NCBI GenBank assembly: GCA_938015295.1
Contig: CALLQB010000028.1
Location: 1 to 64,000, forward strand
Source of the DNA: an uncultured Acidimicrobiales bacterium
GTDB lineage: Bacteria > Actinomycetota > Acidimicrobiia > Acidimicrobiales > SHLQ01
Direction of reading: 5' to 3'
DNA length: 64,000 nucleotides
Under the pieces are notes generated by a model. It was not told the DNA's origin. It saw only the letters and a list, made by a program, of their open reading frames with translations, and searched no databases. The position numbers were made by a program, and so were the translations under genes. This document shows, in pieces, positions 35,569 through 50,902 of this stretch. Position 1 is the stretch's first letter; each line of letters opens with the position of its first letter.

Positions 35569-36459
35569 CTACTGAGCTGGCGCGCAGTTCGCGGTGCGAT
35601 CGGTCATCCAAAGAAACAACGGCGACCGGCTGACCCGCTGAGCAGGCTCGGCAAAAGCCAGCCCAGCCGGTTCCTCTGGACTGATCGCTACCGCAACCGT
35701 GAACTGCTCGTGACACAACCCCTCCGGCACTTCACCAGCGATCGAGACAATCCGGTTCGAAAGCGGCGCAACCGAAACCGAAACCGACTCCCAAGACACA
35801 TCACCGATGCGTGCATCGACAACATAGGTCGCCGGCAAAGAGGTCGAGTTCACCAGCTCTACTTGAACCGTCGACTCGCTGCCCCCCACGACATCGACCT
35901 CACCCGCAACCAGAGCCCATGTGCCGGCAAAGGCGTATGCGTGAAATTCGTCTGCTGGCTTGCGTTCAAAGGCACTAGCGCCCCCGAACGCCACGGCCAT
36001 AGCCAACGCGATTGTGCAAACTCCCAGCGCCCAGGGAGGTACGTCAACCGACACCTCATCTGCGACGCGTCGCAACCAGACCTTCAGACCCAGCGAACTG
36101 AACCAGCGAGAAGAAACCCCAGCGGTGACGAAACAAAAAAGAACAACCGACACGAGCACCGACCAGCGGGTCAAACGGTTACCAGCCACCATCACCGCAA
36201 GAGCAAGAATTGGATACACACACGAACTCAGCACCGCTGATAGCGCGAGGCGTCGGGCGCCCGAGAAGACCACGGATTCGCGAAACAGGACAACCAACAG
36301 CGCATTGCCAGGGACGACAAGGGCCAATGGCAGCACCAACAAACGCCAAGCCGTCGGCAGAACTAGGGAGCCGCCGACCAAGAACCCGGCACCCGCTAGG
36401 ACCGTAATAGGGTGACTCCAGATCGAAGACGCCGACGAGGGAAATACGTGCTGGCTCAT
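35569..36459 (-). CDS. Membrane protein with extracytoplasmic C-terminal domain (DUF1616-like)
   Basis: A 296-residue protein with about four TM helices in residues 15-110 (PITVLAGAGFLVGGSLVLP, LLVLPLALVVPGNALLVVLF), a further one near 142-160, then a soluble ectodomain (170-296) of beta type (VQVELVNSTSLPATYVVDAR, NRIVSIAGEVPEGLCHEQFT). The architecture recalls DUF1616 proteins in archaeal and bacterial surface-glycan loci. It is last of four genes linked by ATGA overlaps with the flippase-BcsB, sulfotransferase and GT-C-like genes. Function unknown. Confidence 0.78.
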   Translation of the reverse strand: MSQHVFPSSASSIWSHPITVLAGAGFLVGGSLVLPTAWRLLVLPLALVVPGNALLVVLFRESVVFSGARRLALSAVLSSCVYPILALAVMVAGNRLTRWSVLVSVVLFCFVTAGVSSRWFSSLGLKVWLRRVADEVSVDVPPWALGVCTIALAMAVAFGGASAFERKPADEFHAYAFAGTWALVAGEVDVVGGSESTVQVELVNSTSLPATYVVDARIGDVSWESVSVSVAPLSNRIVSIAGEVPEGLCHEQFTVAVAISPEEPAGLAFAEPAQRVSRSPLFLWMTDRTANCAPAQ

Positions 36460-38318
36460 GGGCGGGACCTGACAAACGCGTCTGGGTCAAGCCTGTACAC
36501 CACGATGTGATCACTTTCGTACAGTCGCAAGGCGTAGGGCAGCGCATCCCACTTTGTCAGCGTCGCCATCGACAGTGGCTCGGTACGCTCAAACGCCAAC
36601 GGCTCCTGCTGGTCGAGGTAGAACTTGGTCCGGGGCACAAACTGGGATTGACGCTTGTCAATCACCACAAAGCGAAGACTTTCGTTTCGAATCTGTTCGA
36701 GAAGATCAACCGGAATCTCATCATCGCTCAGGAGAAACTCCCAGATCGGATATTTGGTGCTTGGCACGCCAAGAACGGCAAAGGCACGCGACGAAAACGC
36801 GACCTGATTGCTTCGGTCGGCAATGAGCCCCTGATCAGCACCCTGGGTGGTCCGGAACCACTCGGCAGCGGCGTTGACTTCGTTGGTCACCGAGCGGGTG
36901 TCAGATCCGTACACGTACGGGCCAGGGAACCGGTAAAGCTCGTTGGTCGCTAGCGAGATATTGCCGACCAGCAGCGCACTGGTAAACGCCACAGCTACGA
37001 CCTTCGTCGTATTGCGGACCAGTGCACGGTCGGATCGCAGCCAGGCACCGATGCCCAACGAAAGAATGACCGCGACGCCAAGGTTGCTAAATGACCAGCT
37101 TCGGCGCGCCCCTTCAGCGCCAGTCTCCGACAGCATCATCGGGAAGACGGCAAAATACATCCCGCCGGTGAGCAGCAACCCCAACATCGTCGGGCTCCGC
37201 GTCCGGCGCACCAGCAACACCATCGTGGAGACCCCGAACGCACCAGCGAGAAGTACGGGCGAGGCGAAGGCCAGCAATTTTTCGTACATCGGAATTGTGC
37301 TACCGGCAAATAGCTGCCTCGGCTGCGCAGCGTCCTGTTCGTCGAGAACATCCGGACGATCCCAGAAGGAGAGCAATCCAGCGGTCTCTTCGAAGCCTCC
37401 TTCAATGTAGGGCTGTAGGTAGGCACGAGTGTTCGGGGCTTGATACACGAACCACCCGACGGTGAACAGAATAAAGCAGCAGGCAAAGAGCACCGTTTCG
37501 GTCAAATCGACCCGGTCTCGGAGCAGTAGCCTCACCATGAATCCGGCGATCACGAACAGACCGAGGATCAAGAGCGTTACATAGCTCGAAAGATGGTGAG
37601 ATCCTGTCAAGGTGATCGCGACGACAAGCCCGACGAGAAGCCACGCTGTCCGCTCCCACGAGACCGACGATGCCTGCTGAAAATGCACTACCGCGGCGAT
37701 GACCCAGATGAACAAGACAATGGCGAATGACTCGTACGCAAACTGCGCGCTGAAGTACCAAAACCCCGGTCCAACTGCATAGAACAACGCTGCAATGCCA
37801 CCGGCATGATGCGACGAGAGTGAAACCCCGATCGAGTAGACGCCAAACAACGCCAACGCATGAAACATGATCAGCAAAGCTGCAGCAACTTCGATCGTCT
37901 CAAGGCCCGTGAGGTGCCGCACAGACGCCGCAAAAGCGTGCATCATTGGATAGTCGCTCACCACCACAACCTGGTTGTTCTGTGCGAACAGTTGACCGTC
38001 TGCAAACAGCCTTTCAACCTGGGTCCAATGCGCATACTCATCGAAGAACGCTGGCTGCCCGGGATAGGCAAGAAGTTTCGGAAACATGCTGAACGTGCCG
38101 ATGGCAGCGACGATCAGACAACGGTCGGTAGTTGACGTCCGGTGACTGAGAAGCTTGATGCTGGCCGGCAGCAAGAAGAGAAACATCGCTAGCCAGAACA
38201 GGTGAAAATGCGTGTGGGATCCTGCCGCGCTGCGGCTAGCGAGCGCCTCGGAGTAGGTCAGCAGAAAGCTCCCTGCGAACAGTCCGGCCCATACAAAGAG
38301 CATCGACCGGTCGTTCAT
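36456..38318 (-). CDS. Polytopic GT-C-like membrane protein
   Basis: A 620-residue protein with about 12 TM helices in the first 480 residues and a soluble C-terminal region (485-620). The first extracytoplasmic loop has GQPAFFDEYAHWTQVERLF (near residues 86-105), an Asp-Glu pair placed like the catalytic acidic residues of GT-C glycosyltransferases that use polyprenyl-phosphate sugars. The ATG at 38318 overlaps the sulfotransferase stop (ATGA), so I prefer it to the ATG six codons upstream. It probably adds a sugar to the exported polysaccharide or a surface glycoconjugate; the donor is unknown. Confidence 0.75.
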   Translation of the reverse strand: MNDRSMLFVWAGLFAGSFLLTYSEALASRSAAGSHTHFHLFWLAMFLFLLPASIKLLSHRTSTTDRCLIVAAIGTFSMFPKLLAYPGQPAFFDEYAHWTQVERLFADGQLFAQNNQVVVVSDYPMMHAFAASVRHLTGLETIEVAAALLIMFHALALFGVYSIGVSLSSHHAGGIAALFYAVGPGFWYFSAQFAYESFAIVLFIWVIAAVVHFQQASSVSWERTAWLLVGLVVAITLTGSHHLSSYVTLLILGLFVIAGFMVRLLLRDRVDLTETVLFACCFILFTVGWFVYQAPNTRAYLQPYIEGGFEETAGLLSFWDRPDVLDEQDAAQPRQLFAGSTIPMYEKLLAFASPVLLAGAFGVSTMVLLVRRTRSPTMLGLLLTGGMYFAVFPMMLSETGAEGARRSWSFSNLGVAVILSLGIGAWLRSDRALVRNTTKVVAVAFTSALLVGNISLATNELYRFPGPYVYGSDTRSVTNEVNAAAEWFRTTQGADQGLIADRSNQVAFSSRAFAVLGVPSTKYPIWEFLLSDDEIPVDLLEQIRNESLRFVVIDKRQSQFVPRTKFYLDQQEPLAFERTEPLSMATLTKWDALPYALRLYESDHIVVYRLDPDAFVRSRP

Positions 38319-39175
38319 TTTTGCAAGCTCGGCCAATGCGCCGTTGGTTCGTCGAGCAGTGACAACATCGCGTGTGCTTCCTCAGCGAGGCGATGCCACC
38401 TCGGGCCGAGCATCTCTCGCGTGAGCTCGGGTTTTTCGACCGGACGCGAAACGAGTCGGTGTAGCTGTTTGAGCGGTGGCCCGAGCGGCGAGTCAACCAA
38501 TTCATTGCAGGCCCGGCGGATCGGCTCATGGCCGAGAAGCCGGTCGACAAATGCTGGGTTTTGACGACGAAGGCCCGCCTCGTTCGCATGCACCGCTTCA
38601 ACATCAAAATCAGGCAAGTCCAACCACCGGACAATGTTTGATGCAACCTGCGCAGGGTTTGCCGAGAATCGCTCAAAGGATGCGACGAATACGCTTTGCG
38701 CGCCAAACGTGGAGACGAACGAGTCGTAGTGAGTTCGATACCACGTCGGCTCAATCAGGCGATCAATCGCTCTGTCGATGTCGGCGGGCAGATCGTTGCG
38801 GGGCTCGGACCGAAGCTGCAGATATCCCGAACGCATTCGTTCGATCGGATCCCGCACGAGATACACGAATCTGACATCGCCCGGCGCCAACCTCGAAATC
38901 GACGGAACAACCCAGGGGTACCGGACTGTCTGGCTGTACGACGTGGAGCCATCGATCCGGTAGCGAGCGTCCTTCGAGCTAGGGCACGCTGACGGCGAAT
39001 ACCTAGAGAGATACTCGTCGCGGGCGGCCACACTTGGATCCGCCCCCAAAAGCGAGAAAAAACCTGGCTCTTTGAGGTCGGGTCCCCAAATAGAGCGATG
39101 GCGTACCAACATTTCATAGAGCGAGGTGGTGCCGGCCTTGTGGGCGCCAATCAGAAACAAGTTCGGGCAACTCAT
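38315..39175 (-). CDS. PAPS-dependent sulfotransferase
   Basis: A 286-residue cytoplasmic sulfotransferase. The 5'-phosphosulfate loop is LFLIGAHKAGTTSLYEML (residues 6-23), the 3'-phosphate motif VYLVRDPIERMRSGY lies near 106-120, and a late helix RRACNELVDSPLGPPLKQL follows. The start ATG at 39175 overlaps the stop of the flippase-BcsB gene. Context suggests it sulfates a sugar of the surface polysaccharide made by this locus; a lipid or small molecule acceptor cannot be excluded. Sulfated polysaccharides suit a marine or saline lifestyle. Confidence 0.88.
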   Translation of the reverse strand: MSCPNLFLIGAHKAGTTSLYEMLVRHRSIWGPDLKEPGFFSLLGADPSVAARDEYLSRYSPSACPSSKDARYRIDGSTSYSQTVRYPWVVPSISRLAPGDVRFVYLVRDPIERMRSGYLQLRSEPRNDLPADIDRAIDRLIEPTWYRTHYDSFVSTFGAQSVFVASFERFSANPAQVASNIVRWLDLPDFDVEAVHANEAGLRRQNPAFVDRLLGHEPIRRACNELVDSPLGPPLKQLHRLVSRPVEKPELTREMLGPRWHRLAEEAHAMLSLLDEPTAHWPSLQK

Positions 39176-42100
39176 GACGCTGGTCCCCGCAGGCGCTCTC
39201 TTCGTCGGAGTTCTTGTCGGGCGGCACGGGTTTTCCGGCGACTCCGCATCCATAGGACGATGACGACCGAAATCATTCCTGCGACGGCGGTGATTTGTAA
39301 CGGCAGAAGGCGAGCAAAAATCGATTCGCCACCGACAGCGATGACCCTCTGGACTTGTTTGCCTCGCAGGCTCAGGCTGACCGGGGGCGACCCGTCAGAC
39401 AGGAGGTACGTGTCACCGAACAGGCGTTGAAAGCTCAGCTGGCGGGTCGAGAACGAGTCAAGAAGCTCGGTCACATGCGCGTACCCCGAACGTGGCGGGC
39501 CGCCCCCGTTCGACCATGTTAGAAGCAGCCGATCGGCGCCCGCCGATTCGTACGCTTCGAGCACTGCGTGCGGAAGGTCGACTTCGAAATCGAGCAGCTT
39601 CAGTCGCTCTTCATCGATGACCGTCATCGAATCTGTCGACAGCATTGGTCCAGCCTCGAGTACCGAGGCAGTCGTCGATGAGATCACCACAGCTGATGTC
39701 GGAGCGGACATCGCAGTGGCAACGTCGACAAACTCGGGTGAAAGGTCAACGGGGCTCAACCGCTGAAGAGCTGCGAGAAGCCGAACCGACATGGCCACAT
39801 GGTTGAGGTCATAGGTAGCGAGCCCAACGGCGAAGCCACCGAGAAGGGTTTGGGGAAATCGCGCAAATCCCGGCTCGAGCGACTGACCCCCACCGACCTC
39901 CATGAAGGACAAGTCGGGGTTGATCTGCACGTTCATCGGGATCGCCCCAAGCGTGTCGCAACCTCCCTCTGGGCTGTAATCGACGCTGAGTTGATAGTCG
40001 AAAGATCGACTGTGCATTTCCTCTGGTATCTCGAAGTCGAACTTGAAGGCGCCCTGATCACCCAGCGTCCAGCCTTGGATCATCTGGCCGCCGAGGTTGA
40101 AACTCATCGAGCCCTGAGCGCCTCCATCGATTGGTGTGTACACACCTTCGACGTGGATTCGCATGGAGCTCACGGGGCCGCCCAAGGCAGATTGGCTGAT
40201 CGAAAACGGAAGATCCATACGGCCGACGCCGGTTAGTCGCATCCGCCCAAGCTCGAGTGCGCGAAACGAGTGTCGCGACTTTGACTCGGTCGACAGAAGG
40301 GGGCCATTTCCGACATCAGAACCACCGAGATCGGATGTTCTTTCGCCAGAAGTCACATCATCGTCGAAGGCCAACACGTCAGGTACGGCGTCAGCCTCTG
40401 GTTCAGGGTCCAGATCAAACACTTCGATCGAGACAGACGTTCCGACTACCAGCGGCGAGTACGAGCTCATCAACGCCTCCGCGCTCCGGATTAGCTCAGC
40501 TCCGTCACCGCCTAGGGCCAGAACCACCCCACCCGAGCGGGTCGTGACGAGATGCACTCCAGCGGGGAGGTCTTCCGATATCGCCACAGCTCGGCCAGAG
40601 GCCTCAAGATCGACGTCTCGGACCTCGGCGTCATTCCACAACGCGGAAATGTCCAGAGTCGGCGCACCGCCAATCGCTGAGCGGGAGGCAGCGATTGCCA
40701 TCCTCGCAGCCGCTTCAGCCTCGGCTGGCGAAGTCTCCCGGGGAAGCGAGATTTCAACCCGCTCAAGGAGAGGGGGAAAGAAATTTGCGACCGTTGTCGG
40801 CACAGCCGGATCGCCACGAAGTAAGAGCACGCCGTGGGAAAGGTCAACATAGGCACCCAAGAGGTTAGTTGTGCATACCGGATCCTCGCTGCGAAGCCGG
40901 TTTCGAAAGGTGACCCGAGCCCGGTCTGACTCGACGTCGACTTCGGAGAGATCAAGCTCGACCTCGGTTACCGCGTCTCGATCCGCGCGATGCCCAAACT
41001 CGATCGCCAATGGTGACGACCCGGGCCCAAAGAACTCGACGTAACCCGTGTCAACATCGGGCGACAGCGTCAAACTGGCGCGCATCGAGACAAGTTCGAA
41101 TCCAGGTGGGACCGGAATCGACACAACGCTTTCGTTGACCTCGCCCGCCAAACGAAGCGAACGGCCGATCTCGGTCGCATCGAACGGAACTAACCACAAG
41201 CCATCGTCCACACGAACAACCGCTGGGTTCCAGAGCGGATCAAGCCGAAACTGGTCGATGGCATCAATGCTGTCAGCGGTCTTGGCTTCATCAAACCCAA
41301 CCCGTTGATACACAAGGTCCCCAGCGTCGGCCGATCCGTCTGTCGCCGTCAACGGCACCTCGTCGTTCTCCTGGTCTGTCTCGCTAGCCGAGTCGTCGGA
41401 CTGCGCGACTGCCAAACCGACATCAGCGATTACCAGCATCGGTAAAATCGTCAGGCAGATCACAAACACACCTGCGACTCTGCCCGCGGTGGCCGTTGTT
41501 CCGCGACGACTCCACAGTTCAGCTAGAGCGATATAGATGCAGCCAGTCGACTGTGCGAGTACCCAAGCCCAACCTGCCCCAACAATGCCGAGCGTGGGAG
41601 TCATGAGATACGCAAACCCAATGGCGACCGCGGCCATCATGATGTTAACCAGAGCAACATGTCCGGTCCGGCCAAGCACACGCCAACGACTAACCCACAC
41701 GTTGGTGACAGCGTCAGGCACCGCCGACAGCACAAGAACCAGCAGCAGCGGGTAGCCGCTCGTGCGGTAGCCGGGCCCGAACAAACCGAGGAGCGTCTCG
41801 CCGAACAACACAGAAAACATCATCGCGGCGATCAAGATCTGAGCGATCACACGACTTGCTCGCCGCAGTTGCCTCGCGAGCGATGCCGGTTCTGCGGCAC
41901 CTTCGGCAAACAAGGCATTTGCAATCGCGTTTGACGCCATAAAGAACATCGAACCGATCATCCAGGTGATGTAAAAAAACGCCGAAGCATCCGCACCAAC
42001 GCGAGCGATAACCACCACGGGCAGAACAAGCATGGGCAGTTGTCCACCAAGGTTGGCGACATGGTGCCACGCGCCCCGACGTAACAGCCCGCTTCGCACA

Positions 42101-42783
42101 TCGGCCCGATCAATCCCCTCAGCATCGGCATGTGCCGGCCACGGAACTACACGTCGGACAAGTACCAACGAGCAGCCGAGACACACTACCCAGCCGGTGA
42201 AAATGGCCGACGTCCCGTCTTGGACAAATGCGGCGACCAGAGGAAGAGACAAAAGTTTTGTCAGGGTAAAGGAGGTACCGCGGGCGAGGAAACCGACCGA
42301 CCGGCGGTCGCCGATGTACACCGAATCGATCAAGTTGGCCCAAACCGAAACCACCAAACCACCAGCCAACGCTAGGCGCATCGGCAGGGTGAGAACGCTC
42401 CGCAACTCCGGCACTAGCCAAGGAACCAATACCGCGAGAGTCGCGCCGCCAGCGATCGCCGATAAGGTGCCGCACTGCCACGCCGCCGCAAGCGTCGCCG
42501 ATCGACGTCGCTGCTCAGACGCCGCGCTGAGCCGGTCGATGAGCGCGGTTCCAAGGCCAAGATTGGCGACGAGCGCGCCCAGACTCATCGCGGCGATCAA
42601 CGATGCTGCACGTCCGACCTCTTCGGGCCGAAAGAGGCGAGCCGCCAACATCCAGTACAGGTAACCAACCGCAGAGTTGCAGAGCGTGGTCGCCATAACC
42701 AAGCTGCTGTTTCGTAACAGGGAATCAGTCGCCAGACTCGCAAGAGACCGGCGCGAGAGCCTCGTGAGTCGGTGGGTAGTCAT
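39172..42783 (-). CDS. Wzx/MATE-like polysaccharide flippase fused to a BcsB-like domain
   Basis: A 1203-residue fusion. Residues 20-430 form a flippase with about 12 TM helices (VMATTLCNSAVGYLYWMLAA; SLIAAMSLGALVANLGLGTA). A hydrophobic segment at 434-461 (VFVICLTILPMLVIADVGLA) leads into a 700-residue extracytoplasmic part built like BcsB of cellulose synthase: CBD-like domain 545-660 with Cys 637, flavodoxin-like domain 665-775 (FFPPLLERVEISLP; GGVVLALGGDGAELIRSAEA), second CBD 855-960 (MSFNLGGQMIQGWTLGD; LSVDYSPEGGCDTLG), second flavodoxin-like region 985-1110, then a TM helix (1161-1180) and basic tail. It likely couples membrane flipping to extracytoplasmic guidance of a glycan; I know of no described precedent. 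First gene of the coupled four-gene operon. Confidence 0.82.
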   Translation of the reverse strand: MTTHRLTRLSRRSLASLATDSLLRNSSLVMATTLCNSAVGYLYWMLAARLFRPEEVGRAASLIAAMSLGALVANLGLGTALIDRLSAASEQRRRSATLAAAWQCGTLSAIAGGATLAVLVPWLVPELRSVLTLPMRLALAGGLVVSVWANLIDSVYIGDRRSVGFLARGTSFTLTKLLSLPLVAAFVQDGTSAIFTGWVVCLGCSLVLVRRVVPWPAHADAEGIDRADVRSGLLRRGAWHHVANLGGQLPMLVLPVVVIARVGADASAFFYITWMIGSMFFMASNAIANALFAEGAAEPASLARQLRRASRVIAQILIAAMMFSVLFGETLLGLFGPGYRTSGYPLLLVLVLSAVPDAVTNVWVSRWRVLGRTGHVALVNIMMAAVAIGFAYLMTPTLGIVGAGWAWVLAQSTGCIYIALAELWSRRGTTATAGRVAGVFVICLTILPMLVIADVGLAVAQSDDSASETDQENDEVPLTATDGSADAGDLVYQRVGFDEAKTADSIDAIDQFRLDPLWNPAVVRVDDGLWLVPFDATEIGRSLRLAGEVNESVVSIPVPPGFELVSMRASLTLSPDVDTGYVEFFGPGSSPLAIEFGHRADRDAVTEVELDLSEVDVESDRARVTFRNRLRSEDPVCTTNLLGAYVDLSHGVLLLRGDPAVPTTVANFFPPLLERVEISLPRETSPAEAEAAARMAIAASRSAIGGAPTLDISALWNDAEVRDVDLEASGRAVAISEDLPAGVHLVTTRSGGVVLALGGDGAELIRSAEALMSSYSPLVVGTSVSIEVFDLDPEPEADAVPDVLAFDDDVTSGERTSDLGGSDVGNGPLLSTESKSRHSFRALELGRMRLTGVGRMDLPFSISQSALGGPVSSMRIHVEGVYTPIDGGAQGSMSFNLGGQMIQGWTLGDQGAFKFDFEIPEEMHSRSFDYQLSVDYSPEGGCDTLGAIPMNVQINPDLSFMEVGGGQSLEPGFARFPQTLLGGFAVGLATYDLNHVAMSVRLLAALQRLSPVDLSPEFVDVATAMSAPTSAVVISSTTASVLEAGPMLSTDSMTVIDEERLKLLDFEVDLPHAVLEAYESAGADRLLLTWSNGGGPPRSGYAHVTELLDSFSTRQLSFQRLFGDTYLLSDGSPPVSLSLRGKQVQRVIAVGGESIFARLLPLQITAVAGMISVVIVLWMRSRRKTRAARQELRRRERLRGPAS

Positions 42784-42938: not shown

Positions 42939-43853
42939 ATGTCAGAACACGACCCGATCCAACCGGCCTCCTCCGAGCCACACGGCGAGACGAGGTACCC
43001 CACAAGACCGTCGTCAAATCGCACGATGGTCCCGATAAGCCCGACGAACACACCAAAAGTTAGCCTGGTCATACCGACGCTCAACGAGGCCGACAACCTT
43101 CCTTTACTCGCGGAGAAAATCCCCGAGATTGTCGATGAGATCGTTGTGGTCGATGGCAGAAGCGTCGATGACACAATCGAAGTCGCCCGCCGGCTGTGGC
43201 CAACTGCGCTCATTCTCCTCGAGCGACGGGCTGGAAAGGGCCGCGCTCTCGCTTCGGGTTTCGATGCGGCAACGGGGGACATCATCGTGATGATTGACGC
43301 CGACGATTCAATGAACCCACTTGAGATCAACAGCTTTGTCCGATTGCTTCGCGATGGCGCTGACTTTGTAAAGGGCAGCCGCTACCTCGATCACGGAGGC
43401 AGCAGCGATCTCACCCGAATTCGGTCGTTCGGAAATCAGGCCTTGACCAAAACGGTCAACCTGCTCTTCGGGACCAGCTACACCGATCTCTGCTACGGCT
43501 ATAACGCGTTCTGGCGTCACTGTTTGCCGTGTCTTGATGTCGATTGCGCGGGTTTCGAAGTCGAAACCCTGATGAACATTCGCGTTGCAAAGGCCGGCCT
43601 CCGGGTAGCTGAAGCACCGAGTTTTGAGTCGCATCGAGCGTTTGGCGAGTCGAACTTGAACGCCATAAGCGACGGCCTCAGAATCGCAGGCACCATCATT
43701 CGAGAGTCGACCGGTCGAACTCGCACAATGACCGACGCCGATCGACGGGCCGCCGACGAGAACAACCTGGGCCGCCGCTGGGACGACACGCAGGCAACCA
43801 ACAACGGATCTACAGATCGCGACGCACACGCTCCGCTTCGACGTACGGCCTAG
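42939..43853 (+). CDS. Family 2 glycosyltransferase, dolichol-phosphate-mannose synthase-like
   Basis: A 304-residue GT-A fold enzyme without TM helices. It has the GT2 nucleotide-binding start VSLVIPTLNEADNLP, the EIVVVDGRSVDDT strand, and DxD motif in MIDADDSMNP (near residue 110). AGKGRALASGFDAATGD is typical of polyprenyl-phosphate glycosyltransferases such as DPM1, and the tail is Arg/Asp-rich. It probably makes a polyprenyl-phosphate sugar that the GT-C-like protein could use. An alternative ATG at 43026 removes 29 N-terminal residues; neither ATG has a good ribosome site. It diverges from the flippase operon and is followed by GT4 7 bp later. Confidence 0.87.
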   Translation: MSEHDPIQPASSEPHGETRYPTRPSSNRTMVPISPTNTPKVSLVIPTLNEADNLPLLAEKIPEIVDEIVVVDGRSVDDTIEVARRLWPTALILLERRAGKGRALASGFDAATGDIIVMIDADDSMNPLEINSFVRLLRDGADFVKGSRYLDHGGSSDLTRIRSFGNQALTKTVNLLFGTSYTDLCYGYNAFWRHCLPCLDVDCAGFEVETLMNIRVAKAGLRVAEAPSFESHRAFGESNLNAISDGLRIAGTIIRESTGRTRTMTDADRRAADENNLGRRWDDTQATNNGSTDRDAHAPLRRTA

Positions 43854-43860
43854 TTCGCGC

Positions 43861-45033
43861 ATGTCTGCTCCGCCGAGAAACACCCAACTTCTGCGCATCG
43901 CGCTCGTGTGTGCCCGTTACCGACCGTCAACCGGGGGCGTACAAACCCACGTAGCAAAACTTGCGTCCGGCCTTGTTGAACGCGGGCACGAAGTAACGGT
44001 TCTGACCCATAGACTTCACGCCGATCAACGACGGTTTGAAACGTCTGACGGCGTTCGAATTGAGCGATTCAATCGGACCATTACCTCCGAACACCTTGCG
44101 ATATCGAAAGGTCTGGTTTCGGCGATTCGCCGAGGCGGTGAACGCTTCGATGTCCTGCACGCACACAGCTACCACGATTCACCGGCACTGATTGCCTCGG
44201 TGGCCTGGACCGGCCCGCTGGTCTTCACCCCGCACTATCACGGCGAGAGTAGCGACCCGGTTCGTCAAGCCCTACACATCCCCTACCGGCTACTGGCCGC
44301 GAATATCTTCCGAAGGTCCGAGCGGACCTTGTGCGTGAGCGGCGCAGAACGCGACGCAATACAGCAGGATTTCGCACGTTCTACTGGCGTAGTGGAGTTG
44401 GCGAGCAACGGCGTCGCACGAACCCGCATTCGCGACGCGTATCCACTGAGGCCGACGCCTCAACCTCTTACGCAAGTGGCGTATATCGGCCGACTCGAAG
44501 ATTACAAACAGGTCGACCTCCTTGTTCGAGCAGCTGCAATATTGCGAAGAACCCACCGCTTCCACATCATTGGCCAAGGCCCAGAACGGCCCTATCTCGA
44601 ACGGTTGGCTCGCGATCATGACCTCGACGAGGTGGTTGAGTTTCACGGCCGACTTCTTACGCAGGCGGTCTATGGCTTTCTCCGCGGCAGCGAAATCATC
44701 GTCTCCCCGTCACGTATTGAAGCCCAAGGAATCGGCTGTCTTGAGGCGCTTGCCGCAGGAGCCAACGTGGTCGCTTCCGACATCGCACCGCACCGCGAAC
44801 TTCGCCGTAACTATCCAAAGAGCGTCACGACCTTCGACGTTCGCGACGGTGTCCCCGCTCTCGTCGACGCGCTCTGGTTAGCAACGGTCGCGCCTCGAAG
44901 AGAACACGATGTTCCTACGTGGGAGGACCTGATCGACACCGTCGAGCGGACCTATCACAGCGTCATCCAACGAACGCTCACTGCACCCGACATTGACCAC
45001 CGCACAATCGTTCCCGCTACGGCGGCCGCGTAA
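43861..45033 (+). CDS. Family 4 glycosyltransferase
   Basis: A 390-residue GT-B fold enzyme. The N-terminal domain opens with the acceptor-site glycine loop PSTGGVQTHVAKLASGLVER (residues about 21-40), followed by DVLHAHSYHDS. The donor domain has AYIGRLEDYKQVDLLVRAA, FHIIGQGPERPYL and the GT4 signature PSRIEAQGIGCLEALAAGAN near 282. It likely transfers a sugar from a nucleotide donor onto a lipid-linked repeat unit. It follows the GT2 gene at 7 bp and precedes the RTX/TSP3 gene by 20 bp, so all may be co-transcribed. Confidence 0.92.
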   Translation: MSAPPRNTQLLRIALVCARYRPSTGGVQTHVAKLASGLVERGHEVTVLTHRLHADQRRFETSDGVRIERFNRTITSEHLAISKGLVSAIRRGGERFDVLHAHSYHDSPALIASVAWTGPLVFTPHYHGESSDPVRQALHIPYRLLAANIFRRSERTLCVSGAERDAIQQDFARSTGVVELASNGVARTRIRDAYPLRPTPQPLTQVAYIGRLEDYKQVDLLVRAAAILRRTHRFHIIGQGPERPYLERLARDHDLDEVVEFHGRLLTQAVYGFLRGSEIIVSPSRIEAQGIGCLEALAAGANVVASDIAPHRELRRNYPKSVTTFDVRDGVPALVDALWLATVAPRREHDVPTWEDLIDTVERTYHSVIQRTLTAPDIDHRTIVPATAAA

Positions 45034-45053: not shown

Positions 45054-47270
45054 ATGTCAAAGCGTCTAGCACCATCAACCACACCAGAACGACAATCGCC
45101 GACCACCAGCGTGTCGCTCCATCACAAGAGGCGTCGCGGTCTCACGGTGATCTTTCTTGTTTCGCTGGTGGTTGCCGTGGCAGCGAGTGCGACTACCCCG
45201 ATACCAGCGGCGGCCACTGCGAAAACCCGTACCTCGTGCGGAGCCGCTCCGGCCGGTTACAACATCATCGAATCGGACAACCCGACTATTCGCGGGACTC
45301 GCGGCGACGACTTCATCTGCGGAGGAGCGTCAAACAACACGATTGATGGTCGTGCCGGAAACGACATCATCAGAGGCGGAGGAGGCGACGACAACATTAA
45401 GGGCGGTGACGGAAACGACAAGCTCTATGGCCAAGCAGGCAACGACACCCTCAACGGCGGTGCCGGCGATGACCTCGCTAAGGGCGGTGCCGGTAGCGAC
45501 GTCATCTCGGGAGGTCCTGGCAACGACAAACTGTACGGACAACGCGAGAAAGACACCATCGCCGGTGGCGAAGGTAGCGACAAAATCGTCGGTGGCGGGG
45601 GTGGCGATGTCCTCGACGGGGGTCCCGGCGATGACGCGCTAAGGGGCGACAGCGGCCGCGACCGACTCTTCGGCTCGACAGGCGATGACAAACTTATCGG
45701 CGGAAAGGGAACCGACCGACTAGACGGTGGCGAGGGCTACGACAACTGTCTCAGCGGAGCACGCCTCACAGCGTGCGAGGCTCCTGACAGTGACAACGAT
45801 GGCATTGATAACGCGGTAGACAATTGTCCGACGGTAAAAAATGCCGACCAAATCGACACCGACGAAGATGGCGTCGGCGACTCGTGCGACAGTTCAAACC
45901 AAAAAGCACTGAAGGTGTCGATCAGCGCTGACACGATTTCCTCGCAAAGTGGTTGGGAGCCCGGCAACGCAGTTCTTGTGCAGATCGCAGCATCGAACGG
46001 CGATCTCCTCGAATCCATCACCGCTGTGCCTGACTCGACAGGCGGGTTTCGGGTCGGACCAACCATCATCGATCTCACGGCTGGTCTCCGAGTCGTGGCG
46101 ACCGATCCCGTAACCGGTTTCACCACCTCAACGGTTCTCGCGTCGCTAGAAATCGAGTCGATCGACACGGCAAACAACCAAGTAGTTGGCAAGGGCCCAG
46201 CTGGATCACTCGTTTCGGTGAGCGTCTACACCGAAGCCAAAGGCTGGCGAACCGACGCCGTCGTTGGAACCAATGGAACGTTTATCGCCACGTTCTCTGG
46301 CATTGTGAACTTGACCCCAGAGATGGGGGCGTCGATGTGGTGGATTGATTCACAAGGCGCCACCATCATCACCGACCGCGTCGCAAAGCCAATTCCGACC
46401 GTCAAAGTCTCGACAACTCTCAGAATCGTGACGGCTCTTGCGGGTTGGACAGGCACGGTGACAGCCGTTCTCGCGGATGCAGCAGGCCTCGAAGTGGAAC
46501 GCCATGTCGTGACTGCGACATCAGGCGGAGGGTTCGATGCGTCGTTCGACAACGAATTCCTCCCCGGAATGACCATTCGCGTGACCGACGAGAGCGGGAC
46601 ACAAAAGTCGCTGACCGTAGCGCCGCTTTCCGTCGACAAGGTCGACATCGCTGCGGGAGCGATCTCGGGGGTTGGTCCAGCGAACGCCGCAGTGACCGTT
46701 GTCGCCTACAACCTGACCACGAACGCCGTCCTTCCTGTCGTGGTCGGATCAGCCGGCGCTTTCACTGCCAGTTTCTCTAGCTCCGGTTTCGACCTCGCGC
46801 CAGATACCGGCGTTACGGTCTGGTTTAGCGACGACGATGGCGATGTCCAACTCATCGATAAGGCGGCGCCGCCGCTGCCTAGCTTTGTCGCATCACTCTC
46901 GGGCGACAACATATTTGCCTGGAAGGGATGGTCGCCGAACTCATCGGTCAGACTGCGGATCACCAACCTTTTCGGTAGCCTCGTGCACTCCCAGGACATC
47001 ACAACGACCGAGACCGGGAGCTTTGCAGTTGACGCCATCCCGGGCGTCGATCTGGTGCCTGGCATGCGGGTTGAGGTAGCCGATCCACTCACCGGTGTCA
47101 CAAAGGCTATCAATCTTGCGCCCTTCGATATAGCGGCACCAGATGGCGCCCCGTACTACATCACGTTCGAGCCTCCGGCCGAGAACGTCACGTGGCTTCC
47201 TGGATTCATCGCTTCGACTGATAACGATGGCGACCGCACTACTACCGACTACTACCTGGTGCTCCTCTAA
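45054..47270 (+). CDS. Secreted RTX/thrombospondin type 3-like repeat protein
   Basis: A 738-residue exported protein with a basic N-region and signal anchor (about 29-56). Residues 75-245 are RTX nonapeptides (GNDTLNGGAGDDLAKGGAGS). Residues 245-283 hold TSP type 3-like DNDGIDNAVDNCP and DTDEDGVGDSCD, calcium loops with paired Cys. Residues 288-700 are a chain of Ig-like beta repeats, each with an LEIESID/FVASL-type opening and GWxxG motif. No sorting signal or C-terminal TM. A ribosome site AGAAGGAA is upstream. Being inside the glycosyltransferase run it may be a calcium-dependent matrix or adhesion protein of the same surface structure. Its stop overlaps the next ATG (TAATG). Confidence 0.85.
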   Translation: MSKRLAPSTTPERQSPTTSVSLHHKRRRGLTVIFLVSLVVAVAASATTPIPAAATAKTRTSCGAAPAGYNIIESDNPTIRGTRGDDFICGGASNNTIDGRAGNDIIRGGGGDDNIKGGDGNDKLYGQAGNDTLNGGAGDDLAKGGAGSDVISGGPGNDKLYGQREKDTIAGGEGSDKIVGGGGGDVLDGGPGDDALRGDSGRDRLFGSTGDDKLIGGKGTDRLDGGEGYDNCLSGARLTACEAPDSDNDGIDNAVDNCPTVKNADQIDTDEDGVGDSCDSSNQKALKVSISADTISSQSGWEPGNAVLVQIAASNGDLLESITAVPDSTGGFRVGPTIIDLTAGLRVVATDPVTGFTTSTVLASLEIESIDTANNQVVGKGPAGSLVSVSVYTEAKGWRTDAVVGTNGTFIATFSGIVNLTPEMGASMWWIDSQGATIITDRVAKPIPTVKVSTTLRIVTALAGWTGTVTAVLADAAGLEVERHVVTATSGGGFDASFDNEFLPGMTIRVTDESGTQKSLTVAPLSVDKVDIAAGAISGVGPANAAVTVVAYNLTTNAVLPVVVGSAGAFTASFSSSGFDLAPDTGVTVWFSDDDGDVQLIDKAAPPLPSFVASLSGDNIFAWKGWSPNSSVRLRITNLFGSLVHSQDITTTETGSFAVDAIPGVDLVPGMRVEVADPLTGVTKAINLAPFDIAAPDGAPYYITFEPPAENVTWLPGFIASTDNDGDRTTTDYYLVLL

Positions 47271-48511
47271 TGAACGCTGCTGCACGAAGGATTCTTCTTG
47301 CCGTGGATTTTTACCCACCGACTATCGGCGGGATGGAGAAACACGTGCAGAGGCTCGCCGAAGCGTTGGCTAAGCTTGGCTGGGATGTTCATGTCGCCAC
47401 GCTGAGCTCCAACGCCACCTCGACCGTCGGCGTGACCGTCCATCGGGTTGCTGGATGGACACAACGGGCGGCGCGACTCCATGCGTCGAGTGAACGTCCG
47501 TTCCCTCCGCCGATGCCTGATCACGGACTCGTCATGTCGCTGAAGAACGTGATCGACGAGGTTCAGCCAGACATCGTTCACGCGCATGGCTGGATCTCCT
47601 TCAGTGCTGCCAAGGCCCGATCTACCATCGACATTCCGCTGATCATCACGGTGCATGACTCTGGCCTGATCTGTGCAAAGCGGACGAGATATGACCGGGA
47701 GCAGGCGGCATGTGTTGGGCCGTCAAGCAGTTGCTTTCGGTGCAGCGCCGACCATTACGGAGTTGCACGGGGCACGGCTCTCGTTTCGGCGTTGGCATTG
47801 GGCAAACCGTCGCTGCGCTATGCCGACCGGGTGCTTTGTGTCAGCAGCGAGCTGGCCGAAGCCAGCGGCCCTGTGCTTCGCGGCGTGCCGATCGAGGTTA
47901 TTCCAAACTTCTCGGCGCCAGCACCATCACGGCCCGGTGGACGGCAGCGTCCCGACTTTCTACCCGACGGCGATGTTGTGCTGTACGTCGGAACTCTCGC
48001 TCCATTTCGCGGTATCGACGATCTACTCGCGGTCTGGAAAACCCGTGCTCCTGCGGCACAGCTGGTGCTTGTGGGATCGAACCCAGAAGGTCTCCCGGCG
48101 GTGATGCCTGAAGGTGTCCATGTCGTACTCGACGCCCCGCACCATCACGTGCTGGATGCGTTCAGCCACGCCGCGCTCGCTGTACTGCCGTCGAGGTTCC
48201 CCGAACCGAGCCCAACGGTCGTGCTGGAGGCATTTGCACACGGTTGCCCGGTAGTCGCAACGGCGATTGGTGGCATTCCCGACATGGTCATCGACAACGT
48301 CAGCGGTCGACTGGTGCCGCCGAACAATCCGGCACGTCTCGGCCTCGCGATCGAAGAACTCCTTGCCGACCCGTGCCTACGCGGCCGCCTCGGCACACAA
48401 GCAAAAGAGCACGGCGGCCGCTACCACCAGGACGTTGTCGTGCCCCAAATCGCCGCAGCCTACGAAACTACCCTCTCCAAAGGGCCAACATCACTGGAGG
48501 TTGCGGCGTGA
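47270..48511 (+). CDS. Family 4 glycosyltransferase
   Basis: A 413-residue GT-B enzyme, second GT4 of the locus. Motifs are PPTIGGMEKHVQRLAEALAK (acceptor loop), DIVHAHGWISF, a middle ITVHDSGLICAKRTRYDREQ segment with paired Cys (ACVGPSSSCFRCS) and the signature PSRFPEPSPTVVLEAFAHGC with GGIPDMV near 340. The Cys-bearing insert resembles that of some actinobacterial GT4s and may bind zinc. It starts 1 bp inside the RTX stop and overlaps the downstream GT2 by 4 bp (GTGA). Confidence 0.92.
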   Translation: MNAAARRILLAVDFYPPTIGGMEKHVQRLAEALAKLGWDVHVATLSSNATSTVGVTVHRVAGWTQRAARLHASSERPFPPPMPDHGLVMSLKNVIDEVQPDIVHAHGWISFSAAKARSTIDIPLIITVHDSGLICAKRTRYDREQAACVGPSSSCFRCSADHYGVARGTALVSALALGKPSLRYADRVLCVSSELAEASGPVLRGVPIEVIPNFSAPAPSRPGGRQRPDFLPDGDVVLYVGTLAPFRGIDDLLAVWKTRAPAAQLVLVGSNPEGLPAVMPEGVHVVLDAPHHHVLDAFSHAALAVLPSRFPEPSPTVVLEAFAHGCPVVATAIGGIPDMVIDNVSGRLVPPNNPARLGLAIEELLADPCLRGRLGTQAKEHGGRYHQDVVVPQIAAAYETTLSKGPTSLEVAA

Positions 48512-49602
48512 ACTCGCCTTCCCAACCACAAGATCGACTTACAGCCTCTGTTGTGATCTGCGCCTACACGCTTGACCGGTGCAGCGACATCGAGGCCGCG
48601 CTTTGCGCACTCGAGAAACAATCGGTGTTGCCCTCGGAGGTATTGCTCATTGTCGACCACAACAAGCAGTTGGAGATCTGGGCGGCGGAACAGGCCCGAA
48701 AGATTGCTTGCTTTCCCGTTGAGGTGTTAGCGAATGTACACAAACAAGGCCTATCGGGCGCACGGAATTGTGGCGTCGCCGCTGCGTCGGGCGACGTCGT
48801 CGTGTTCCTCGACGACGACGCAAAGCCCGACCGGTCGTGGCTCGCCAAGCTCCTTTCGTGCTACCGCGACGAAGCCGTCATCGGCGTGGGTGGGGCGGCG
48901 ATTCCTGCCTGGCCCAACCGGGCGCCGAGCTGGTTCCCAGACGAGTTCGCGTGGGTGATCGGCTGCAGCTACGAGGGCATGCCCAAGCAGCGCGGCGAGA
49001 TTCGCAACTTCATTGGCTGCAACATGTCATTCCGACGAGCGGTTTTCACCGTGGTTGCCGGCTTTAGTGAAGACCTCGGGCGGGTTGGCACAATTCCGCT
49101 CGGCTGCGAAGAGACCGAACTTTGTATCCGTGTTCGCGAGGCATTTCCTGCTGCACTGTTGCTGTATGAGCCCGCTGCGATCGTCCATCACCGGGTCACG
49201 GCTGCACGGACCGGTTTTCGGTATTTCCGCCGTCGATGTTTCGCCGAAGGACTTTCCAAGGCAGCAATGACAGCGATGGTTGGCACCGAGAGCGGTCTTG
49301 CCTCAGAGCGTTCCTATCTCGTTCGCACCTTGCCCAAAGCTTTGGTGCGCTCAGTGCTCAACCCGCGCCACGGTGCGCGAGGTTTGGCACTCATCGCCGG
49401 CACAGGGTGCACCGTTGCCGGGTTCATACGTGGACGATTGACCTCTCGGAGTGGCACGTTGAAAACACCGTTTACACCGGGCATCACCGCTGCCAAACTC
49501 TCACCCAGTCGACGACAAGCTGCCCCGCGTCAGTCGTCGCCGCTGGCCCCTGATTCCACGTCCCAGGTTTCCCGACGCCCACCTGAAGATTTAGCCGCAT
49601 GA
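48508..49602 (+). CDS. Family 2 glycosyltransferase
   Basis: A 364-residue GT-A enzyme starting at GTG 48508 with GGAGG seven bases upstream and the previous stop overlapped by 4 bp. Motifs: TASVVICAYTLDRC, SGARNCGVAAASGDVVVFLD with DDDAKPDRSW as the metal-binding triad, and GCEETELCIRVREAFP near 205 as the base/acceptor acidic motif. It ends with a 50-residue Ser/Pro/Arg tail coded inside the 3' end of the convergent GH16 gene. It is the active relative of the degenerate paralogue at 56740. The donor sugar is unknown. Confidence 0.9.
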   Translation: MNSPSQPQDRLTASVVICAYTLDRCSDIEAALCALEKQSVLPSEVLLIVDHNKQLEIWAAEQARKIACFPVEVLANVHKQGLSGARNCGVAAASGDVVVFLDDDAKPDRSWLAKLLSCYRDEAVIGVGGAAIPAWPNRAPSWFPDEFAWVIGCSYEGMPKQRGEIRNFIGCNMSFRRAVFTVVAGFSEDLGRVGTIPLGCEETELCIRVREAFPAALLLYEPAAIVHHRVTAARTGFRYFRRRCFAEGLSKAAMTAMVGTESGLASERSYLVRTLPKALVRSVLNPRHGARGLALIAGTGCTVAGFIRGRLTSRSGTLKTPFTPGITAAKLSPSRRQAAPRQSSPLAPDSTSQVSRRPPEDLAA

Positions 49603-50902
49603 AGAAGTCCTGATCGAATGGCGCACCGTTTGTCTCGAATACATCGACGACAACATCGTCGATCAGCCAAGTAATTGACGAGTGCGACCATTCAACGCTG
49701 TAGACGTGCCAGTCGGCAATCGTGCCGTCGAGGTCGAGGACGGTCGCTTGTCCTGGGATCGAGATGCCCCGCATAGCCATGTCCTTCTCGTCGGGCCGGA
49801 CGAGATTGACGTGCGCCTTAGAAGGTTCGTGGGTGTACAACTCGACGATGTCGATCTCGCCACTTCTGGGCCAACCTCCGTACACCTCGTCAACCGGAAC
49901 CATCCAGAATGCTGGCCAGAATCCGGCCGCCGCGTTCACTCGCATCCGGGCTTCGAAGCGTCCATAGGTGAAACCGTGCTGGGCTTTGGTTTCATCGTGG
50001 TCGCGCGTTGCTGACTGGAGGTGCCCCGAGAGCCACGACTTCTGAGCGCAGCTTCCCGAACGGTCGGTCACAGCAGCGTGACGCCGGTGGGCCTCGAGAA
50101 TGAGCGCACCTTGTTCAAGTCGGACGTTTTCGGGCGTAGAGGAGTAGCACTCGCCATGCAGGGATTCAAAGAGGTCACCCTCGGCAATCGTCCACTTTGT
50201 CTGATCGACCACGTCTCCTTCAAAGTCGTCCTGCCAAACCAACGACCAGGTATCGGGAACAGTCGTTTCGGGAGGCTTCGTCACCGTCACAGGCGGCCGC
50301 TGTGCGGTGTTGACCTCGAAGAAGAATGATCCGTTGCACATCAAGATCTCCGAGGATTTGAACCCGGCAGCGCAGCCATCTTCATCGGTCCAGGTCCCCG
50401 TACTCCACGTTGTTGTCGCCTCGGTGTCGAACCGCTCCCCGCCAGCCCAAATGTGGTCGACCTCGACATTGCGATCGTAGGGCGGCTCGTAGCTGTCGTT
50501 GACAAACCGCACTTCGATGACCGTTATGGGCTGGCCATCGTTGTCTTGTGCGACCGACTCGCTTGAACCTCGTAGTTGCGGCAGCGCATACCAGGTCCAT
50601 TCCGTCGAAAGATCCGCGGTAAGCGCCAACTGTCCATCGATGTAGGTCTCAATCCGCTCATCGCCGGTTTGCCCGCGAACCCGTATGCCAGATTCCTGCT
50701 GGGGCTGATCCGGCCCGACGACAGGTGCGGAAAGCGCTGTGGGGATAGCAGTCAGGATTGCGAGGAGAAGCGATGCTGAGAGCACCGTAGCCAGCACCGT
50801 GACCAACGCTACGTGCGGGCTGTTTCCGAAATACTGTCGCCGCTTCGGGAGTCGACTAGGTGAGCGAAAGGCGCCATGGTTTCGAAATGTTCGCGAGGTC
50901 AT
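49484..50902 (-). CDS. Secreted GH16 glycoside hydrolase with N-terminal CBM
   Basis: A 472-residue exported enzyme with a TM/signal segment at about 32-58. Residues 70-160 look like a calcium-dependent carbohydrate-binding module of the CBM60 type (GIRVRGQTGDERIETYIDGQ; RFVNDSYEPPYDRNVEVDHI). Residues 215-470 are GH16: LVWQDDFEGD, YGRFEARMRV, catalytic GEIDIVELYTH with EIDIVE at 349-354, and SHSSITWLIDD. GH16 cleaves beta-1,3/1,4-glucans, galactans or carrageenan-type chains, and could trim the polysaccharide of this locus. Its last 119 bases overlap the GT2 gene in convergent orientation. Start ATG at 50902. Confidence 0.88.
   Translation of the reverse strand: MTSRTFRNHGAFRSPSRLPKRRQYFGNSPHVALVTVLATVLSASLLLAILTAIPTALSAPVVGPDQPQQESGIRVRGQTGDERIETYIDGQLALTADLSTEWTWYALPQLRGSSESVAQDNDGQPITVIEVRFVNDSYEPPYDRNVEVDHIWAGGERFDTEATTTWSTGTWTDEDGCAAGFKSSEILMCNGSFFFEVNTAQRPPVTVTKPPETTVPDTWSLVWQDDFEGDVVDQTKWTIAEGDLFESLHGECYSSTPENVRLEQGALILEAHRRHAAVTDRSGSCAQKSWLSGHLQSATRDHDETKAQHGFTYGRFEARMRVNAAAGFWPAFWMVPVDEVYGGWPRSGEIDIVELYTHEPSKAHVNLVRPDEKDMAMRGISIPGQATVLDLDGTIADWHVYSVEWSHSSITWLIDDVVVDVFETNGAPFDQDFFMRLNLQVGVGKPGTWNQGPAATTDAGQLVVDWVRVWQR

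Follow-up and report, generated by a model that had tools for sequence, protein, structure and literature searches.

The recognized role of BcsB is that of a partner to the cellulose synthase BcsA, so a gene that reads through from a polysaccharide flippase into a BcsB-like module raises the question of what such a module might do in the absence of a synthase. We found this gene in a stretch of 64,000 nucleotides (the window), which represents contig C28 in a MAG that totals 5.0 Mb in 140 contigs and is 95% complete. Gene content and the kinship to L019, a locus labeled Actinomycetota, mark the organism as an actinobacterium, probably a member of the Acidimicrobiia. The hand-over of flipped glycans to enzymes on the outer face is poorly understood, and a flippase with a tethered guide would gather this step into one testable protein. 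The features of the fusion gene and of the locus around it are collected in Table 1.

Table 1. Position of the fusion gene, its parts and the neighboring genes in the window.
Feature	Position	Strand	Basis
Whole fusion gene	39172..42783	(-)	1203 aa, ATG start, stop-free frame
Wzx/MOP-type flippase domain, residues 1-431	41490..42783	(-)	PF13440/PF01943, hydropathy, AF2 and Foldseek
Joint: basic cytosolic tail and former BcsB signal peptide	41398..41490	(-)	hydropathy, frames, sequence
BcsB-like extracytoplasmic region CBD1-FD1-CBD2-FD2, residues ~521-1148	39340..41223	(-)	AF2, Foldseek, VIA
TM14 (1159-1177) and basic cytosolic tail, C-terminal	39172..39309	(-)	hydropathy, charge count
Sulfotransferase, second operon gene	38315..39175	(-)	PF13469, 46.1 bits; ATGA overlap with fusion
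626-aa membrane protein, at least 11 TMs, conserved FDExxHW loop	36456..38318	(-)	kept in relatives; no Pfam match
DUF1616-like membrane protein	35569..36459	(-)	PF07760, 28.2 bits, below cut-off; kept in relatives
GT2, polyprenyl-phosphate-hexose-synthase-like (AglJ-like)	42939..43853	(+)	PF00535, 80.1 bits; TIGR04182, 123 bits, below cut-off
GT4 glycosyltransferase	43861..45033	(+)	PF13439
GT4 glycosyltransferase	47270..48511	(+)	comes after flippase gene in relatives
GT2 glycosyltransferase (AglG-like)	48500..49602, start tentative	(+)	comes after GT4 in relatives

One Frame Encodes a Flippase Fold and a BcsB Fold

In the N-terminal half, the Pfam family PF13440 (Polysacc_synt_3) covered residues 48-333 with 22.9 bits against a cut-off of 23, and a sequence-profile search of the PDB with the flippase gave no match. 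Hydropathy, on the other hand, placed 12 TM segments up to residue 416, with both ends of the domain inside. When an AF2 model of residues 1-1196 (model 2) was compared using Foldseek, BcsB chains came first, followed by MATE, WzxE, and MurJ chains, and WzxE (9g9p_A) had the best TM-score by target, 0.74, among the matches listed. Hydropathy, AF2, and Foldseek all find in this half the 12-14 TM MOP fold of Wzx/MOP proteins, and the model indicates that residues 1-430 take the fold of MOP-superfamily flippases (WzxE, MATE, MurJ), as a sequence-only reading of the window had proposed for the first ~430 residues. The same reading had left room for the export of a finished chain, which is not favored because MOP flippases with this fold are transporters of lipid-linked units. 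Taken alone, the fold would also be compatible with a degenerate flippase domain that is a mere membrane anchor for the BcsB-like part. We consider this highly improbable, as all 12 TMs are retained, the identity of the flippase to its unfused relatives (50, 42, and 39%, full length) is about the same as that of the BcsB part (50, 39, and 35%), and a second close copy of the flippase subfamily was not found in the same genome.

The C-terminal half missed the curated threshold of PF03170 (BcsB), with 11.5 bits against a cut-off of 21, and the profile matched 8 of the 24 family members (best 4.3e-8). A sequence-profile search of the PDB returned chance matches to MHC tails only and no BcsB, so structure comparison was required. 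An AF2 model of residues 461-1203, built on an alignment of 24 homologues, had a pLDDT of 77.9 and the order beta-sandwich, alpha/beta, beta-sandwich, alpha/beta, and long TM helix. With this model the top 22 Foldseek matches in the PDB were all BcsB (best E 1.6e-27), after which E fell to 1.8e-07 for unrelated folds. VIA aligned it to E. coli BcsB (6yg8_D) with Z 23.6 and rmsd 5.1 over 546 residues, compared with Z 9.4 over 126 residues for the best non-BcsB entry; most rows below rank 9 match one beta-sandwich domain only and were left out. The two CBD and flavodoxin-like repeats and the C-terminal TM anchor of BcsB are thus all present, and residues ~520-1145 are predicted to fold as BcsB, a relationship barely visible from sequence alone. 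The earlier claim that one protein of 1203 residues joins a flippase to a full CBD-flavodoxin-CBD-flavodoxin-TM module of the BcsB kind is borne out by the single frame and by the matches to both folds.

Compared with the BcsB of cellulose synthase (PF03170; 6yg8, 7l2z, 9fmt, 4hg6), the fusion has the same CBD-FD-CBD-FD order, the C-terminal TM, and a full-length fold match, but its BcsB part is 12-14% identical, its locus holds no BcsA, and it is fused to a flippase or, in relatives, adjacent to one. With WzxE and other MOP polysaccharide flippases it shares the 12-TM fold and a locus with GT2 and GT4 enzymes, whereas the C-terminal extension of ~770 residues with its extracytoplasmic module sets it apart.

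The Joint and the Membrane Topology

A strong TM segment, TM13, occupies residues 439-457 and a further one, TM14, residues 1159-1177, and the count of K+R is 2 before TM13, 0 after it, and 6 after TM14. According to the positive-inside rule, this pattern and the 12 preceding TMs place the BcsB part outside: the chain would start inside, cross the membrane 12 times, return to the cytosol, leave it through TM13, and come back in through TM14. TM counting and the K+R distribution therefore agree with the outer-face location that had been suggested before. The TM13 region ends GLAVAQSDD and aligns with the N-terminal start of unfused BcsB proteins, which identifies TM13 as the former BcsB signal peptide, and the signal-peptidase-like site AVA-QS that follows it is intact. 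A joint had been expected near residue 450; it is there, but because the old signal peptide of BcsB (~439-462) was kept we restate its position as residues ~425-462. Across residues 430-500 the pLDDT of model 2 is ~27-46 and its pTM is 0.58, and therefore the model shows no packing between the halves.

The sequence of the joint also bears on whether the fusion is real. It comes from a single MAG, the operon has 4-base ATGA overlaps elsewhere, and inside the joint a +1-frame TGA overlaps an in-frame GTG (GTGA), so that one indel could merge two separate, tandem-overlapping genes, a flippase and a BcsB, through a one-base error of assembly or sequencing. Such an error at the joint is unlikely, since ~20 conserved genes of the MAG showed no frame change when compared with relatives, and since one frame holds both stretches of basic residues, the flippase tail (SRRG) and the n-region of the signal peptide; a start at the GTG would cut the basic n-region off the signal peptide. 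Even two separate genes would put the flippase, inverted, in tandem with BcsB, so that a rearrangement would have occurred in either case.

Relatives Keep the Two Halves as Neighboring Genes

In four relatives (G007, G123, G1031, and L019) the BcsB and the flippase are encoded by separate, divergent neighbor genes, and the same GT4 and GT2 genes come after the flippase gene. The DUF1616, 626-aa, GT4, and GT2 genes stand in one order in G007, G123, and G1031, the contig of L019 being too short. The genes of this locus are present in the window yet rearranged, and the orientation of the flippase relative to BcsB is reversed. In the BcsB tree, the window falls in a 100/100 clade whose members have unfused Wzx neighbors, as sister to L019 (98/97), and this clade is separate from that of the BcsA-adjacent BcsB proteins, which holds the second copy of the same genome. 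Because the relatives keep the halves as separate neighbors and the window has the same genes rearranged, parsimony identifies the fusion as the derived state, in which the flippase was inverted and joined in frame to BcsB. By this comparison, the fusion would have united two genes that were already in joint use.

Only a single MAG contained the fusion, and the locus was absent from same-genus genomes. No further flippase-BcsB fusions were found in draws of 397 genomes of the order, 395 of the class, and 396 of the phylum, nor in 39 genomes of the family of G123, the genome contig collection, or viral contigs, and the BcsB family profile found no BcsB part in long-frame flippases elsewhere. 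The search for the same fusion in other genomes, as the sequence-only reading had proposed, therefore returned none in ~1,000 genomes and, in the four relatives, the adjacent unfused pair. That reading had pictured a glycan export machine with a fused guide; the idea of a pair survives in the adjacency conserved in four relatives, but the gene comparison makes the unfused pair the conserved unit and the fused form the rearrangement of one lineage. A search of open-access papers yielded no account of a flippase-BcsB fusion. We also rejected a phase-variable inversion of the flippase, as the borders at 41450 and 42850 have no long inverted repeats, and a chimeric contig, since every homologue of the conserved locus falls at 35-50 kb in the window.

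BcsB-Like Genes Without a Close BcsA Homologue

None of the window ORFs of at least 200 aa contains Q..RW, the motif that marks processive GT2 synthases, in agreement with the earlier statement that the window encodes no BcsA-like synthase. The GT2 enzymes of the locus have no TMs and no Q..RW, and therefore none of them is a BcsA-type synthase; likewise, no such synthase is encoded nearby in the loci of the relatives. Elsewhere in the same genome, on C60 (L024), a GT2 with QRIRW and TMs adjoins a gene for a BcsB-like protein which is related in sequence but belongs to another clade, an arrangement not shared by the BcsB part of the fusion, and another GT2 match lies on C1. These synthase candidates, together with the intact signal peptide and AVA-QS site, would fit a real fusion that is nevertheless a cotranslational accident, in which the site is cut and the two proteins function separately, the BcsB-like part serving, for example, the C60 synthase. 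We regard this as unlikely, given that the C60 synthase has its own adjacent BcsB-like gene, that G007 has a Wzx-type BcsB-like gene and no match to a C60-type BcsA, and that the neighborhood links the BcsB clade of the fusion to a flippase locus.

At E<=1e-15, a C60-type BcsA had no match in G007, G700, or G992, all of which carry BcsB-like genes; this threshold caught 34%-identical homologues of the C60 BcsA elsewhere, and more distant synthases may be beyond its reach. In G700, from another actinobacterial family, Wzz, Wzy, GT2, and Wzx genes run divergently from the BcsB-like gene; the BcsB-like gene of G992 is divergent from Wzz, with a Wzx gene ~12 kb away. Together with the loci of the window's clade, these show BcsB-like and Wzx-type genes side by side in two or more actinobacterial groups, on different branches of the tree. 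The proposed tie between flipping and an outer-face BcsB-like guide is thus upheld indirectly, by the neighbors in four relatives and by the BcsB-like genes beside Wzz or Wzz/Wzy/Wzx in another actinobacterial family, while binding and coupling are predictions. From these gene neighborhoods, the general finding appears to be that Wzx-type export has a BcsB-like partner on the outer face, to which the fusion is the strongest link. The fusion and the conserved adjacency without BcsA suggest a further role for the BcsB fold, in the export of lipid-linked glycans. Tentatively, there may be a second, synthase-independent class of BcsB-fold proteins that act as outer-face guides of Wzx-type export in Actinomycetota, whose fused form would couple flipping to capture.

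Further BcsB-like genes were observed in both genomes. One in G700 (L077:6610-8679(+)) has ribosomal protein genes on one side and an arylsulfatase-like gene on the other, and in G992 (L085:1033-2964(-) and L074:11300-13033(-)) a second BcsB-like gene comes directly before a PMT-like membrane protein, with an overlap of a few bases.

The Locus and a Proposed Role for the Fusion

The fusion is the head of an operon that continues with the sulfotransferase, the 626-aa membrane protein, and the DUF1616-like protein, with ATGA overlaps at all three downstream joints. Divergent from it, 155 bases off, run the genes of a GT2, a GT4, an RTX-repeat protein, a GT4, and a GT2. Pfam gave no match to Wzy or Wzz among the scanned locus genes. 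Because the FDExxHW loop of the 626-aa protein is kept across relatives we read this protein as GT-C-like, and the motif suggests an enzyme that uses polyprenyl-phosphate sugars, for which the AglJ-like GT2 would supply the donor.

The fusion itself and its neighborhood point to halves that work together, and we think it probable that the protein flips lipid-linked oligosaccharides and brings its own glycan guide for the outer face. Cytosolic GT4 and GT2 enzymes would build a polyprenyl-linked oligosaccharide, which the flippase domain would turn outward, and the tethered BcsB-like part would bind the emerging glycan and steer it toward the outer-face GT-C-like enzyme or a polymerase. When cellulose is made, BcsB is positioned above the BcsA exit, where it directs the chain (PMC11379886). 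The tethered module would, by analogy, take over the flipped glycan and lead it toward outer-face enzymes, the BcsB fold operating here without a BcsA synthase. If signal peptidase cuts at AVA-QS, the fusion would be a precursor that delivers both parts 1:1.

Two other genes of the window had no counterpart in the loci of the relatives: a surface protein with RTX and thrombospondin-3 repeats (45054-47270(+)), which sits between the two glycosyltransferase pairs, and a GH16 glycanase, secreted and bearing a CBM60 module (49484-50902(-)), at the edge of the locus.

Other Flippase Fusions

The MurJ-like MviN of M. tuberculosis, a membrane protein of peptidoglycan synthesis, carries a pseudokinase domain together with one that binds carbohydrate (PMC12599244). 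MviN and the fusion are alike in being MOP-type membrane proteins of glycan pathways with an added carbohydrate-binding module (binding by the fusion being predicted), but the pseudokinase of MviN is cytosolic and its binding domain is another, smaller one, whereas the fusion lacks a kinase and carries the BcsB module in full. In MviN, the carbohydrate-binding module forms the C-terminus and lies outside, separated from the rest by a single TM. An outer carbohydrate-binding part on a flippase thus has a precedent, while a complete BcsB module on a flippase is unprecedented as far as we could search the open-access literature.

Finally, flippases joined to other domains were also observed in relatives. 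In the same genus, the 1891-aa frame L070:3353-9028(+) (G002:C262) has an AftD-type GT-C domain (PF11847, 262.7 bits) before a flippase, so that the genus has another kind of flippase fusion besides the one with BcsB. At L092:1444-4200(+), L101:382-2775(-), and L103:1462-3849(+), flippases of the same subfamily continue in frame into an APH-like kinase domain (PF01636; weak in L103).
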